Shown here piece after piece: positions 37,864-52,228 of a DNA stretch of 64,000 nucleotides. The DNA comes from Allomuricauda sp. TMED12 (GTDB lineage: Bacteria; Bacteroidota; Bacteroidia; Flavobacteriales; Flavobacteriaceae): contig NHBR02000119.1 in NCBI GenBank assembly GCA_002167435.2, positions 62,001-126,000 of the forward strand, written 5' to 3'. The notes under the pieces were generated by a model. It made no database searches, was not told the origin of the DNA, and saw only the letters and a list, made by a program, of their open reading frames with translations. Within the stretch, counting starts at the first letter, position 1, and every line of letters begins with the position of its first letter. The position numbers and the translations under genes were made by a program.

Positions 37864-37935
37864 TTGACCCACTAGGACTCGAACCTAGAACGACTGGACC
37901 AAAACCAGCTGTGTTGCCAATTACACCATGGGTCA
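37864..37935 (-). tRNA. tRNA-Gln (anticodon TTG)
   Basis: 72 bases on the minus strand fold as a cloverleaf: a 7-bp acceptor stem TGACCCA/TGGGTCA, the anticodon stem GCTGG/CCAGT with loop TTTTGGT placing TTG at the anticodon, and the T-arm CTAGG-TTCGAGT-CCTAG. The discriminator is A, and CCA is not encoded. Glutamine codons CAA are read. Confidence 0.95.
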
Positions 37936-46624: not shown

Positions 46625-46838
46625 AGGTTAGACCCAAGACCGCTTCGCTTTAAGATTCTTGAATCGGGATATCTTGTTTAACTTGACTCTTGATTCCTAT
46701 CTGAAAACACAAGATCTCTGAAATCTTATATCTGCCATCTTGCATCCTTTTAAAAGCAATTCGTACTTTTAATCCCCACCATTTTTTGGTAATAGCTAAT
46801 TGTTTATTGAACATTGATAATTGACAACCGAACAGCAT

Positions 46839-49673
46839 ATGTCCGAACAAAAACGACTTTTTTTACTAGACGCCTACGCACTCATCTTCCGCGGATACTA
46901 CGCCTTGATCAAAAACCCACGAATCAACTCCAAGGGAATGGACACCTCAGCCATTATGGGGTTTGTGAATTCCCTTTTTGATGTGATCAAACGTGAAAAT
47001 CCCGATCATTTGGCGGTGGCTTTCGATAAAGGAGGAAGTGTGGAGCGTACCGAACTTTTTGAAGACTACAAAGCCAATAGAGATGAAACGCCCGATGCCA
47101 TCCGCATTGCGGTGCCCTACATCCAACAAATTTTGGATGCCATGAAAATTCCCGTTGTGGAATTGGAGGGCTATGAGGCGGATGATCTTATCGGAACCTT
47201 GGCCAAACAGGCCGAAAAGGAGAATTACAAAGTCTTTATGGTAACGCCCGACAAGGATTTTGGTCAGTTGGTGAGCGAGAATATATTTATGTACCGCCCT
47301 GCCAGAATGGGCAATGGTATCGAAATTTGGGGCATCCCAGAAATACAGAAACGATTTGGGGTAAAACGTCCAGAACAAGTGATTGATTATTTGGGAATGA
47401 TGGGCGATGCCAGTGACAATATTCCAGGACTACCTGGTGTGGGCGACAAGACAGCCAAAAAGTTCTTGGATCAGTTTGATTCTTTGGAAGGCCTCTTGGC
47501 CAATACCGACCAACTGAAAGGCAAAATGAAAGAAAAAGTAGAGGACAATGCCGAGTTGGGTCGCTTGTCTAGAAAGTTGGCTGAGATTAAAACCGACTGT
47601 GATGTGCAATTCCATGCGGAGGATTACGAAATGTGTCCGCCAGATGCCGAAAAAGTACAGGAAATCTTCGAAGAACTCGAATTCCGAAGATTAAAAGACC
47701 AATTCATCAAAATATTTACGGGCGAAGCGGAAGCAAGCACCCAAGTAACCAGCACCAAAACGGCCAAAGAAGAAGCCAAAGTGGCCGGAAGTGGTCAGTT
47801 TACCCTATTTGGCGGAGATCCTTCAGACGCTGCAGCCACCATTAAAGATGTTAATAGCCGAAAAACCATTGCCGATGTTTCCCATTTTTACCAGAACGTA
47901 AAAAAAGGGTTGGACATGGAGCTCTTTTTGGAAATGCTGATGAAGCAACCTTCCGTCTGTTTTGATACGGAGACCACTTCACTGAATCCATTGGATGCGG
48001 AATTGGTGGGCATTGCTTTCAGTTGGTCGCCGGGCAAGGGATTTTATGTACCCTTCCCCGACAATGAGAATGATGCCCAACCCTTAATTGAAAAGCTTCG
48101 ACCATTTTTTGAATCGGAGAATATTGAAAAAGTAGGCCAAAACCTTAAATACGACATCAAAGTGATGCAAAACTACGGTGTGGAGGTCAAGGGCAAGTTG
48201 TTCGACACCATGTTGGCCCACTACCTCATCAACCCCGATATGCGCCACAATATGGATGTGCTGTCCGAGACCTATCTCAACTACACCCCTATTTCCATTA
48301 CCGAGCTTATTGGCAAAAAAGGTAAGAACCAGCTCAGTATGCGACAGGTTCCTTTGGAAAAGCAAACAGAATATGCCGTAGAAGATGCCGATATCACCTT
48401 TCAATTGGGGCTAAAATTTACTCCAGAGCTCAAAGAAGCCCATACCGACAAATTGTTTGATGAAATTGAGATTCCACTGGTCCGTGTATTGGCAGACATG
48501 GAACTGGAAGGTATTAATCTGGACAAGGATTACCTGAATGGTCTTTCGGAACAATTGGATATAGACATCAAGGGGCTGGAGAAAAAAATATATAAAGAGG
48601 CGGGTGAGGAATTCAACATTGCCTCCCCAAAACAGTTGGGCGAGATTCTTTTTGGCAAATTGAAACTGGTGGACAAACCGAAAAAGACGAAAACAGGGCA
48701 ATTTTCCACTTCAGAAGATGTGCTCTCCTACTTGGCAAAGGACCATGAGATTATTAAAGATGTATTGGACTATCGCGGATTGGCCAAACTAAAAAGTACG
48801 TATGTAGATGCATTGCCCAACGAAGTACAGGAAAAAACAGGTCGGGTACATACCGATTACATGCAGACGGTGGCCGCTACGGGCCGTTTGAGCAGTAACA
48901 ACCCTAACCTGCAAAATATCCCCATCCGCACGGAAAGGGGTCGACAGGTGCGAAAGGCCTTTATACCACGAGATGAAAATTACGTATTGTTGGCTGCGGA
49001 TTATTCCCAAATAGAACTGCGTATTATCGCTGCGTTGAGCGAAGAAGACACCATGATCTCCGCTTTTAAAAATGGAGAAGATATTCACGCTTCCACGGCA
49101 TCAAAAGTATTTAATGTGCCGATTGATGAAGTGACCCGCGAACAGCGTAGCAATGCCAAAACCGTAAACTTCGGTATTATTTACGGGGTATCTGCCTTCG
49201 GGTTGAGCAACCAAACCGATTTAAGCCGTTCCGAAGCCAAGGAATTGATTGACACCTATTACAAGACCTATCCCAAATTGCGCAACTATATGAGCGAGCA
49301 AGTGGACTTTGCCCGTGAGCATGGCTATGTGCAAACGGTTTTGGGTCGTCGCCGATATCTAAAAGATATCAATGCGGGCAACCAGGTGGTACGTGGAGCC
49401 GCAGAGCGAAACGCGGTGAACGCTCCCATTCAAGGAAGTGCTGCGGACATCATCAAGATTGCAATGATCAACATCCATAAAAAACTTTCGGAAGGCAAGT
49501 ACAAGACCAAAATGTTGCTACAGGTACATGATGAATTGGTGTTCGATTGTTACAAACCCGAATTGGAGGAAATGAAAGAACTCATTAAATCCGAAATGGA
49601 GCACGCTTACGAGCTATCCGTACCCTTGGATGTTGAAGTGGGTATTGGCGAGAATTGGTTGGAGGCGCATTAA
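46839..49673 (+). CDS. polA: DNA polymerase I
   Basis: 944 residues from the ATG at 46839; an upstream TTG at 46821 is less likely. Three domains: a 5'-3' exonuclease (about 1-290, with EGYEADDLIGTLA and GDASDNIPGLPGVGDKTA), a 3'-5' proofreading exonuclease (about 345-530, FDTETTSLN with Asp and Glu metal ligands kept), and the polymerase domain (about 560-944, with LLAADYSQIELRI and VHDELVFD). Both exonucleases look intact. It fills gaps and removes RNA primers. It is followed by an A+T-rich gene that seems to have inserted between polA and an MFS transporter gene. Confidence 0.97.
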   Translation: MSEQKRLFLLDAYALIFRGYYALIKNPRINSKGMDTSAIMGFVNSLFDVIKRENPDHLAVAFDKGGSVERTELFEDYKANRDETPDAIRIAVPYIQQILDAMKIPVVELEGYEADDLIGTLAKQAEKENYKVFMVTPDKDFGQLVSENIFMYRPARMGNGIEIWGIPEIQKRFGVKRPEQVIDYLGMMGDASDNIPGLPGVGDKTAKKFLDQFDSLEGLLANTDQLKGKMKEKVEDNAELGRLSRKLAEIKTDCDVQFHAEDYEMCPPDAEKVQEIFEELEFRRLKDQFIKIFTGEAEASTQVTSTKTAKEEAKVAGSGQFTLFGGDPSDAAATIKDVNSRKTIADVSHFYQNVKKGLDMELFLEMLMKQPSVCFDTETTSLNPLDAELVGIAFSWSPGKGFYVPFPDNENDAQPLIEKLRPFFESENIEKVGQNLKYDIKVMQNYGVEVKGKLFDTMLAHYLINPDMRHNMDVLSETYLNYTPISITELIGKKGKNQLSMRQVPLEKQTEYAVEDADITFQLGLKFTPELKEAHTDKLFDEIEIPLVRVLADMELEGINLDKDYLNGLSEQLDIDIKGLEKKIYKEAGEEFNIASPKQLGEILFGKLKLVDKPKKTKTGQFSTSEDVLSYLAKDHEIIKDVLDYRGLAKLKSTYVDALPNEVQEKTGRVHTDYMQTVAATGRLSSNNPNLQNIPIRTERGRQVRKAFIPRDENYVLLAADYSQIELRIIAALSEEDTMISAFKNGEDIHASTASKVFNVPIDEVTREQRSNAKTVNFGIIYGVSAFGLSNQTDLSRSEAKELIDTYYKTYPKLRNYMSEQVDFAREHGYVQTVLGRRRYLKDINAGNQVVRGAAERNAVNAPIQGSAADIIKIAMINIHKKLSEGKYKTKMLLQVHDELVFDCYKPELEEMKELIKSEMEHAYELSVPLDVEVGIGENWLEAH

Positions 49674-49704
49674 ATCCTTAATAATGTAATCTTGAGGCAA
49701 TTCA

Positions 49705-51021
49705 ATGGAAAGCTATATTGGTAAAATACAATCTCCCCATACAGAGAATGAAACTATTGATTCTGTTCGTCTCCATTTAAACAACAATAATATAGAAGTT
49801 GAATTTAATTCAAATGGAGGTAGATTTGACAACATCAAAATATTGATTGGAATATTTAATGGGTTAGGAAAAGTTACTTTAGTCAACTGTCAAAATATTG
49901 GTGTGTCCGTTGGAGCCGGAGGTGATATAAGAAAATATAATGCTGAATATTTATTAATAGGTGACTTTTTAAATGACCTCGACTCATGCTTTTTCAAAAA
50001 AGTTACCGTGTTAATGAATGGTTTACTTGACTGGACAAAAATTTCATCTGTAAAGAACAATTTGTTTATCGATAAAAAATTAGAAATCAAAGAAATCGAA
50101 TCTATTGAAATCTATAAATCAAATGATATTTCTATTGAACTTTTTCCTTCTTACAGAATTAACTTGAAAAGGGAAAACAATCTAATTACGATTTCTGAAA
50201 ACACAGGTTTTAGAATCAAATCTTTAAAAGAAAACATAAACATTTGGAGTTACTTAAGCTTAATTACAGAATTGAAAAAATTCTTTTTCTTAATTGGTAA
50301 TTTAAGTACACACACTGAAAGAACTAACTTCTTTATAGACAAAGAAGAACCCATTACCCTCTTTTGGTCTGGCAATAACTCAGTTGGCTCAACTTCATAT
50401 TCAAGCCCTAAAATTAAGTTTGAACAAATAAAACATAACCTTAATGAAATAATTCACAACTGGTTTGAAAAAAAAGATTTACAAACTAGTGTGGACTTAA
50501 TATTGGAGAAAACATCAAACAATAATTTAAGTATAGAAAATTTCTTCTTAAATAACTGTTTCTCAATAGAAACTTTCCATAGGCGATTCCGAAATTATAA
50601 GCTTTTTCAAAAATCTGAATTTAAAGAAATTAAGGAAAAATTGTTTTCCAATAATTTAGATAAGGATATTAAAAAATTAATTGAAAGTAGTCTAGCACAC
50701 ATAAATGAACCCAACTTTAGAAATAGGCTAAATGATTTTAAATCTGAATTTGATGTTTTACTTCCAAACGAATGGATTGCGGATGACTATATTAACAGAA
50801 TAGTTAAAACTCGTAATTATTTGGTGCATAGAAGTAGTAAAAAAAATGTTTTTGATGAATTTGAGATGAAATTTGCAGCCATGTTCATAGAATCAATTGT
50901 AAAAGTTAATATTTTCAGAACCCTTGGAATCGAAGAAAACATAATTGATGAATTATTAATTGATTCTGGAAAAAAAATTAGAAGTAGTTACAATTCAAAT
51001 AAGAAAACTACTGAAATATAA
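49705..51021 (+). CDS. HEPN-domain protein resembling ApeA-type phage-defence nuclease
   Basis: 438 residues. The N-terminal two-thirds are beta-rich and unlike any enzyme I recognise; the C-terminal third is helical and contains RNYLVH near residue 370 within KTRNYLVHRSSKK, the R-x4-H RNase motif of HEPN domains. A beta-rich ligand-sensing N-terminus with a C-terminal HEPN RNase is the layout of ApeA (Apea-like HEPN), a single-gene abortive-infection system. The gene is visibly more A+T-rich, with Asn/Lys/Ile-rich codons, than polA before it and the MFS gene after it, suggesting transfer. The match to ApeA is by layout only. Confidence 0.68.
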   Translation: MESYIGKIQSPHTENETIDSVRLHLNNNNIEVEFNSNGGRFDNIKILIGIFNGLGKVTLVNCQNIGVSVGAGGDIRKYNAEYLLIGDFLNDLDSCFFKKVTVLMNGLLDWTKISSVKNNLFIDKKLEIKEIESIEIYKSNDISIELFPSYRINLKRENNLITISENTGFRIKSLKENINIWSYLSLITELKKFFFLIGNLSTHTERTNFFIDKEEPITLFWSGNNSVGSTSYSSPKIKFEQIKHNLNEIIHNWFEKKDLQTSVDLILEKTSNNNLSIENFFLNNCFSIETFHRRFRNYKLFQKSEFKEIKEKLFSNNLDKDIKKLIESSLAHINEPNFRNRLNDFKSEFDVLLPNEWIADDYINRIVKTRNYLVHRSSKKNVFDEFEMKFAAMFIESIVKVNIFRTLGIEENIIDELLIDSGKKIRSSYNSNKKTTEI

Positions 51022-51043
51022 TTTTGGATATGATAAATTCCAA

Positions 51044-52228
51044 ATGAAACCCTCCAAAATCATATTGCCCATTATCGTGCTGTCGCAGTTTTGCTGTACT
51101 TCGCTTTGGTTTGCGGGCAATGGGGTAATGCCCGACTTGGTAACCACCTTTGGGTTGAGTGAGAGTGCCGTGGGGCATTTGACCTCAGCGGTACAGTTTG
51201 GGTTTATTATCGGCACCCTGGTCTTCGCTATTTTATCCATTGCCGATCGGTTTTCACCATCCAAAGTATTTTTTTCCTGTGCCGTTTTGGGTGCATTGTT
51301 CAATTTAGGGGTGGTTTGGGAAGGCAACAGCCTAGTCAGCCTTCTTTCCTTTAGGTTTTTTACAGGGTTTTTCCTAGCGGGCATCTATCCCGTTGGAATG
51401 AAAATAGCCGCAGATTATTTCGAAAAAGGATTGGGCAAATCCCTGGGCTTTTTGGTCGGTGCTTTGGTGGTCGGGACTGCATTTCCCCATTTGTTAAAAG
51501 AAATGACCCACACTTTTTCATGGAAAGCCGTTTTAATGGCCACCTCCTGCTTGGCCGTTTTGGGCGGTACACTTATGGTGAGTCTGGTTCCAAATGGCCC
51601 GTTCCGAAAACAGAGTCAACAATTACAACTATCCGCCTTTTTAAAAGTGTTCCAGAACAACAACTTTCGCTCAGCCGCCTTCGGATATTTTGGGCACATG
51701 TGGGAACTCTATACCTTTTGGGCCTTTGTACCCATAATGTTGTCCACATATACGTTTCTGCATCCAACTACTTCGTTCAATATTCCTTTGTTATCCTTCC
51801 TCATCATAGGTATCGGCGGGGTAGCCTGTGTATTGGGAGGCTATTTGTCGCAAGGTATGGGAACCAAGCGAGTGGCATTTATGGCGCTTTTGCTTTCCGG
51901 TGCTTGCTGTTTGATTTCCCCTTTGCTATTTGCTCAGGAATCCGAGGTAGGCTTTGTTGCTTTCCTAATTTTTTGGGGTATGGTGGTTATTGCCGATTCC
52001 CCCTTATTTTCCACCTTAGTGGCACAGAATGCATCAGCCGAAATAAAGGGAACAGCACTGACCATTGTGAACTGTATAGGTTTTGCCATCACCATTGTCA
52101 GCATTCAATTACTTAATGAAATGCGCACTTGGACGAATTCCAATATGGTTTATATGTTGTTGGCATTGGGGCCAATTTTGGGTTTGGTTGCTTTGATTTC
52201 AAAAAACAGCACATCAAAGGTCAAATAG
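51044..52228 (+). CDS. Major facilitator superfamily transporter
   Basis: 394 residues from the ATG at 51044; a longer frame from 50960 would overlap the HEPN gene by 60 bases and has no helix there. Twelve hydrophobic segments are visible, with the loop between helices 2 and 3 as AILSIADRFSPSKVFF, the MFS motif A position. The substrate is unknown; the general form is of a sugar- or drug-type exporter/importer. It starts 22 bases after the HEPN gene and its G+C content returns to the local normal. Confidence 0.88.
   Translation: MKPSKIILPIIVLSQFCCTSLWFAGNGVMPDLVTTFGLSESAVGHLTSAVQFGFIIGTLVFAILSIADRFSPSKVFFSCAVLGALFNLGVVWEGNSLVSLLSFRFFTGFFLAGIYPVGMKIAADYFEKGLGKSLGFLVGALVVGTAFPHLLKEMTHTFSWKAVLMATSCLAVLGGTLMVSLVPNGPFRKQSQQLQLSAFLKVFQNNNFRSAAFGYFGHMWELYTFWAFVPIMLSTYTFLHPTTSFNIPLLSFLIIGIGGVACVLGGYLSQGMGTKRVAFMALLLSGACCLISPLLFAQESEVGFVAFLIFWGMVVIADSPLFSTLVAQNASAEIKGTALTIVNCIGFAITIVSIQLLNEMRTWTNSNMVYMLLALGPILGLVALISKNSTSKVK

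Follow-up and report, generated by a model that had tools for sequence, protein, structure and literature searches.

The question raised by this locus was what a single A+T-rich gene standing between polA and an MFS transporter gene encodes, and how it came to be there. The locus lies in the window, the whole stretch of 64,000 nucleotides that was analysed. The gene is a 438-codon ORF on the plus strand (49705-51021) with an ATG start. It is separated by 31 nt from the polA stop at 49673 and by 22 nt from the conserved MFS start ATGAAACCC at 51044. A preliminary description, made from the letters alone, had read it as a HEPN gene inserted after polA and likely to be a phage-defence nuclease. 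The features are listed in Table 1.

Table 1. Coordinates in the window of the apeA-type gene, its parts and its flanks
Feature	Position	Strand	Basis
apeA-type gene, 438 aa	49705..51021	+	ORF; Pfam ApeA_NTD1 and HEPN_Apea; PADLOC PDC-S58 and Cas13-ApeA
ApeA_NTD1 domain, residues 4-253, putative sensor	49714..50463	+	PF18862, E 2.2e-19; beta-rich in model
First beta-barrel of N-terminal domain, about residues 1-84	49705..49956	+	Weak structural likeness to PilZ barrels (VIA-align)
HEPN_Apea domain, residues 288-412	50566..50940	+	PF18739, E 1.8e-18; model resembles 7ae6 and 4nqf
E289, invariant acidic residue of HEPN domain	50569..50571	+	26/26 aligned proteins
R-x4-H motif RNYLVH, residues 370-375	50812..50829	+	Sequence; R370 and H375 in 26/26
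Inserted segment, 1363 nt	49681..51043	+	Flanks compared with the empty polA-MFS junction of L038, L045 and L036
polA, conserved left flank, outside the system	46821..49673	+	Pfam DNA_pol_A, E 6.6e-168
MFS transporter, conserved right flank, outside the system	51044..52228	+	Pfam MFS_1, E 4.6e-31; start conserved in relatives

Two Pfam families matched the protein. ApeA_NTD1 (PF18862) covered residues 4-253, scoring 70.5 bits where 25.5 is the cut-off (E 2.2e-19, profile positions 2-271 of 271), and HEPN_Apea (PF18739) covered residues 288-412 with 67.7 bits against a curated cut-off of 24.4 (E 1.8e-18). No CARF, SAVED or other Pfam domain was matched at E ≤1. In PADLOC, PDC-S58 matched residues 12-422 (E 1.3e-41) and Cas13-ApeA matched with an E value of 8.9e-36. 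The one NCBIfam match was far below its cut-off. ApeA-NTD1 was described in 2013 as a mostly-beta domain of about 300 amino acids fused to the Apea HEPN domain (PMC3710099). The HEPN domains of the ApeA system (Gao et al., 2020) are putative ancestors of Cas13 effectors according to a research highlight (PMC7699616). The HMM searches for both domains that the preliminary description proposed were therefore positive, and its ApeA-type single-gene layout stood, with both domains above their cut-offs and polA and the MFS gene just 31 and 22 nt away. Its statement that the N-terminus belonged to no named family was wrong, the family having been described in 2013, and the suggestion of a new sensor variant thereby lost its basis. 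An uncharacterised N-terminus was rejected because ApeA_NTD1 covers residues 4-253.

The catalytic residues were compared in an alignment of 26 proteins, comprising the window protein and 25 of 34 ORFs read. Left out of the alignment were nine ORFs, of which one duplicates the window gene and the other eight were short, broken or weak. All 26 proteins matched both Pfam families at E ≤1, and G49, E289, R370 and H375 were invariant in all of them. RNYLVH had been read as an R-x4-H HEPN RNase motif, and the HEPN_Apea match together with the invariance of R370 and H375 confirmed this. Identity to the window protein was 12-20% in this alignment and up to 22% with closer subsets. Judged by its sequence, the window protein is a true full-length, divergent ApeA. 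Given identities of about 20-22% to its relatives, its ligand and target may differ from theirs.

An AlphaFold2 model built from the window protein and 18 relatives had a mean pLDDT of 73.7 and a pTM of 0.73. Strands dominate as far as about residue 221, interrupted by a helix at 180-198, and helices follow; several loops had a pLDDT below 50. A beta-rich N-terminus and a helical C-terminus had been predicted, and the model agreed with both. A fold prediction lacking HEPN helices had been named as grounds for giving up the HEPN reading; the model has HEPN-like helices. Foldseek found nothing at E ≤0.001 for the model in either the PDB or the viral models. A second look at the Foldseek rows was taken with VIA-align, whose own note is that Z below 8 may mean just a common arrangement. 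Residues 256-411 aligned in this way to the AMPylated HEPN toxin 7ae6 (Z 6.4, 115 aligned, 3.7 Å), to the HEPN protein 4nqf (Z 6.0, 119 aligned, 4.0 Å) and, lower, to Csm6 6tug (Z 4.9, 121 aligned, 5.5 Å). No solved relative was found by sequence at E ≤1 with either the single window protein or profile A1. A match of profile A4 to an FD15 protein (E 0.014, 37 positions) was taken as chance.

The first barrel of the N-terminal domain (about residues 1-84) gave its top VIA-align match to the unnamed protein 4qxz (Z 7.8). PilZ-type entries on the same barrel scored Z 6.2-7.5 over 76-81 aligned residues at an rmsd of 2.5-3.0, which is below the level of kinship, and Hcp and tail-tube barrels were close behind at Z of about 5-7. 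Parts of the N-terminal domain were modelled poorly, and the domain folded alone was worse (pLDDT 62.2), so its structural matches are weak evidence; in that form 4qxz scored Z 8.7 and the PilZ rows about 7. The Pfam family PilZ (PF07238) was absent from the window protein and from the 16 families matched at E ≤1 by the 26 members of A1. It was found in 0/118 sampled genomes of the phylum, compared with 5/14 control genomes, and on these two grounds c-di-GMP is disfavoured as the ligand. It is unlikely, though worth stating, that the first ApeA_NTD1 barrel is a PilZ-like dinucleotide-binding barrel, ApeA being an RNase gated by DNA-derived dinucleotides and the window protein a divergent member with its own ligand preference. 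If so, gating would be through a fold otherwise known for c-di-GMP, in a phylum in which PilZ was found in none of the 118 genomes. Literature matches on PilZ and HEPN look by title like coincidences of name, apart from PMC13414232 on strain-specific loci in bacterial genomes.

The base composition was as A+T-rich as had been noted. The G+C content, about 44-46% around the gene, is down to 25-28% within it. Among 219 ORFs that do not overlap and encode 200 amino acids or more (mean 41.0%, SD 3.7), sampled from 396 kb of the same genome (the window and 19 further stretches, about a tenth of the genome), this ORF ranked lowest in G+C content, at 27.0%. Its third-position G+C was 24.4%. ApeA genes in the related contigs L147-L173 had G+C contents of about 23-34%, with 27-44% in the 3-kb flanks (L169 has no right flank). 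Given this low G+C content of ApeA across these contigs, the A+T-richness belongs in part to the clade and is not merely a sign of recent arrival.

To examine the site itself, the sequence following polA was compared across the genus, in 68 genomes besides that of the window (69 with it). From 71 genomes, G029 (no match) and G013 (pieces only, one at a contig edge) were left out. ApeA was present at the polA site in 0/68 of the other genomes. A full-length MFS gene followed polA in 25/69 genomes, at a distance of 10 nt in three, 127 nt in one and 341-3506 nt in 21, the window included. The inserts at these 21 loci had G+C contents of 27-38%, compared with 44-50% at the polA end and 43-51% behind the insert. 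As a control, the MFS-NIPSNAP junction measured 43-101 nt in 17/17 loci with both ends placed. Six of the remaining eight loci had no NIPSNAP match. L071 lacked the first 38 residues of the match and still had it close behind the MFS gene. L070 lacked the first 16 residues and had it about 1.36 kb behind, so the control junction is not wholly fixed. The MFS gene was missing or a remnant in 13 further loci, in which a NIPSNAP or thioredoxin-like gene came first, and in 31 loci no marker was found within about 6 kb behind polA (3 kb in L077). Just the first 27-78 MFS codons were matched behind polA in L039, L048, L064 and L069, and the MFS gene seems to be decaying at the junction in several species.

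The comparison of this junction in relatives that the preliminary description proposed yielded three empty sites of 10 nt each at a variable site, and its inserted gene with flanks of 31 and 22 nt was thereby upheld. In L038 and L045 the polA stop is followed by AGAATCCTTA and the MFS start, and L036 is similar with AAGTTACTTA. In the window the polA stop is followed by ATCCTTA, 1363 nt containing the apeA-type gene, and the MFS start. Compared with the window over 300 nt, these three loci showed 88-89% identity at the polA end and 82-91% at the MFS start. The longest stretch repeated exactly at both insert ends measured 8 nt, so there is no clear target-site duplication. The apeA-type gene is probably a horizontally acquired insert after polA. 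No literature on the polA-MFS junction was recognised by title among the matches listed.

Other cargo at the junction was scanned in a subset of ORFs, 20 representatives with Pfam and 10 cargo proteins with PADLOC. Some inserts are common to several species (L041, L049 and L058; L043 and L046) and others occur once. Where a marker-bearing locus had an ORF of at least 70 codons before its first marker (34 loci), the longest ORF ran in the direction of polA in 33, L065 being the exception. Defence- or toxin-like cargo was found by these scans in 4/21 inserts at an intact junction and in 7/38 loci with any marker. Besides the ApeA of the window, L062 carried AAA_14-DUF4143/PDC-S01, L065 a KAP NTPase/PDC-S20 that is also QatA- and PifA-like, and L073 PIN_12. 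In L053, L060 and L067, which have no full MFS gene, an RmrA-like HTH-peptidase M78 gene lies behind polA paired with a DUF4411 (PIN-like) gene, and the pair is toxin-antitoxin-like. L055 had a HEPN_RiboL-PSP match below the cut-off. The rest of the cargo matched DMP19, was transglutaminase-like, or gave weak matches of unknown kind. None of the 20 scanned representatives had an integrase match. Hotspots without mobile elements were described by Oliveira et al. (2017), who pointed to recombination in flanking core genes (PMC5635113), and cargo at the polA-MFS junction may be swapped in the same way.

Of 10 neighbouring proteins between 38106 and 62066, eight had no PADLOC match at E ≤0.001. 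The other two, a metallophosphoesterase with a match to PDC-S10 (E 1.2e-4) and a family 2 glycosyl hydrolase with one to a CARF-beta-galactosidase profile (E 5.7e-19), were read as generic enzymes on their Pfam matches. With no convincing defence protein among these 10, defence-island support from the site is absent. Rather than a defence island, the polA-MFS junction is a hotspot of accessory genes that include some for defence. The sole Rfam match at the gathering threshold within the window was a tRNA (tRNA-Gln) at 37864-37935. Promoter-like sites around the gene numbered 11 compared with 7.1 (SD 2.7) in shuffles, and terminator-like sites in 49400-51300 numbered 0 compared with 1.3, neither of which is telling. 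As no terminator-like site was found there, the gene may be transcribed from the polA transcript.

The gene is sparsely distributed. With the window protein as query, 1/59 relatives was positive, this being its own genome, and 9/397 genomes of the family were positive, its own included. Presence of the gene at this locus in all relatives with normal composition had been named as a refuting result; it did not appear in the 1/59 relatives and 0/68 other polA sites. HEPN_Apea was found in 3/71 genomes of the genus (own included) and 19/395 of the phylum (15 over the cut-off), and ApeA_NTD1 in 16/397 of the family (15 over the cut-off). The genus's other two ApeA genes lie elsewhere, that of G075 about 117 kb from polA and that of G012 on another contig. 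All three ApeA genes known from the genus were placed apart in a 31-row tree, with three changes needed and 0/200 bootstrap trees uniting them. The window gene formed a long branch beside a flavobacterial ApeA clade with support of 97/90, although the placement of long rows is uncertain by the tool's own warning. No match was found in 50,697 phage records, and 125 and 84 pattern hits in viral contigs gave 0 confirmed. Plasmids gave a distant match in 13/72,556 records, all below 60% identity. Genome contigs searched with the window protein gave 180 pattern hits, of which 0 were confirmed.

G214, a genome of the same family as the window, carries a protein 100% identical to the one on the Winogradskyella contig L147, and the family can accordingly be taken as Flavobacteriaceae. 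A 13 kb stretch of L149 (Olleya) was 97-99% identical to L150, L152, L153 and L158 (Olleya, Winogradskyella and Tamlana), and L151 (Hyunsoonleella) was 96.5% identical to it over 9.4 kb. The element at L149:97-9387 carries a tyrosine integrase, DUF6617, BT4734-like, PriCT_2-DUF3987, an HTH gene, ApeA and a Piwi-domain (Argonaute-like) gene, and includes a primase-like gene. The clade members L161 and L165 have neighbours that differ from this element. That this integrative element is shared by some members of the nearest clade supports the view that ApeA is mobile in the family. The Piwi-domain gene next to ApeA suggests, less firmly, a defence context. In Arenibacter (L174, L175 and L176, 6001-6573) a 191-aa ORF encoded the ApeA N-terminal domain alone, with no downstream HEPN match better than E 2.2; this is either a remnant or a lone sensor.

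The domain make-up, the invariant catalytic residues, the foreign composition and the empty sites in relatives together make it probable that the gene was acquired horizontally into the variable polA-MFS site and encodes an ApeA-family RNase of two domains, acting alone in abortive infection as follows. In the resting protein the HEPN domain at the C-terminus would be kept inactive by ApeA_NTD1 (residues 4-253), which on phage infection would bind a trigger. For this ApeA the trigger is a guess and would most likely be a small molecule from DNA breakdown, perhaps deoxydinucleotides. HEPN domains would then dimerise, forming a composite R-x4-H active site that cuts RNA, and the infected cell would stop before phage release. 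The dimer, the RNase activity and the cell arrest are modelled on the ApeA family and on HEPN RNases at large. A 2026 preprint by Juozapaitis et al. reports deoxydinucleotides for ApeA, going by its title in the reference list of PMC13405049. None of the literature matches listed dealt with the ApeA mechanism.

The trigger could instead be a phage protein, for example of the tail or capsid, acting on the N-terminal domain. Tha, a Staphylococcus prophage protein with a C-terminal R-x4-H HEPN domain that protects against phage and loses protection with H270A, is activated by minor tail proteins (PMC11087260), and a protein trigger thus stays a serious rival. Protein sensors can be large, rich in beta strands and little conserved, and the N-terminal domain of the window ApeA is all three. 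Yet Tha was reported to have no discernible N-terminal domain, unlike the window ApeA (PMC11087260), and the nucleotide trigger is reported, by title, for ApeA itself (PMC13405049). A phage-protein trigger is given a distinct minority chance. The gene might also be a passenger among the hotspot's accessory genes that currently serves no function, as most named junction cargo in relatives has no defence annotation and cargo varies between species; its frame is, however, intact over 438 codons with the catalytic residues kept, and this reading is improbable. Least probable, to the point of being hardly credible, is that the protein acts as the HEPN toxin in a toxin-antitoxin pair or as a CRISPR-linked cyclic-oligonucleotide effector. 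HEPN domains occur in both (PMC3710099; PMC11087260), and the modelled HEPN part is similar to the AMPylated toxin 7ae6 and, more weakly, to Csm6. Against this, the short flanks of the single gene leave no room for a partner ORF, and a CRISPR effector is countered by the lack of CARF and SAVED matches.

Finding such a gene is in itself unsurprising. A divergent, intact flavobacterial ApeA is useful for asking what ApeA_NTD1 senses, and the polA-MFS junction of the genus is marked as a site where small A+T-rich accessory genes, some defence- or toxin-like, turn over. Among known systems the closest in organisation is ApeA (PF18739 and PF18862; Gao et al., 2020), with the same domain order, the catalytic residues kept and a single gene. 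The window protein differs in being about 20-22% identical to the relatives gathered, a set outside which the experimentally tested ApeA lies, and in having its gene after polA in a flavobacterial genus; RNase activity and phage protection would be shared by analogy. PDC-S58, which covers most of the protein, is a computational candidate label only. Tha resembles the window protein as a single effector with a C-terminal R-x4-H HEPN RNase, and differs in its shorter length of 301 aa as well as in its N-terminus and tail-protein trigger (PMC11087260). Nearest on the tree, and with the same two domains, is the clade of flavobacterial ApeA proteins to which L147-L153 and L158 (Winogradskyella, Olleya, Tamlana and Hyunsoonleella) belong. 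A Cys-rich FKCLSCG-like stretch is present in most of its aligned members, unlike the window protein, which in turn has a stretch of about 50 residues in the HEPN half that is missing from most of them. Some ApeA genes of this clade lie in the integrative element with the Piwi-domain gene, whereas the window gene lies outside such an element.
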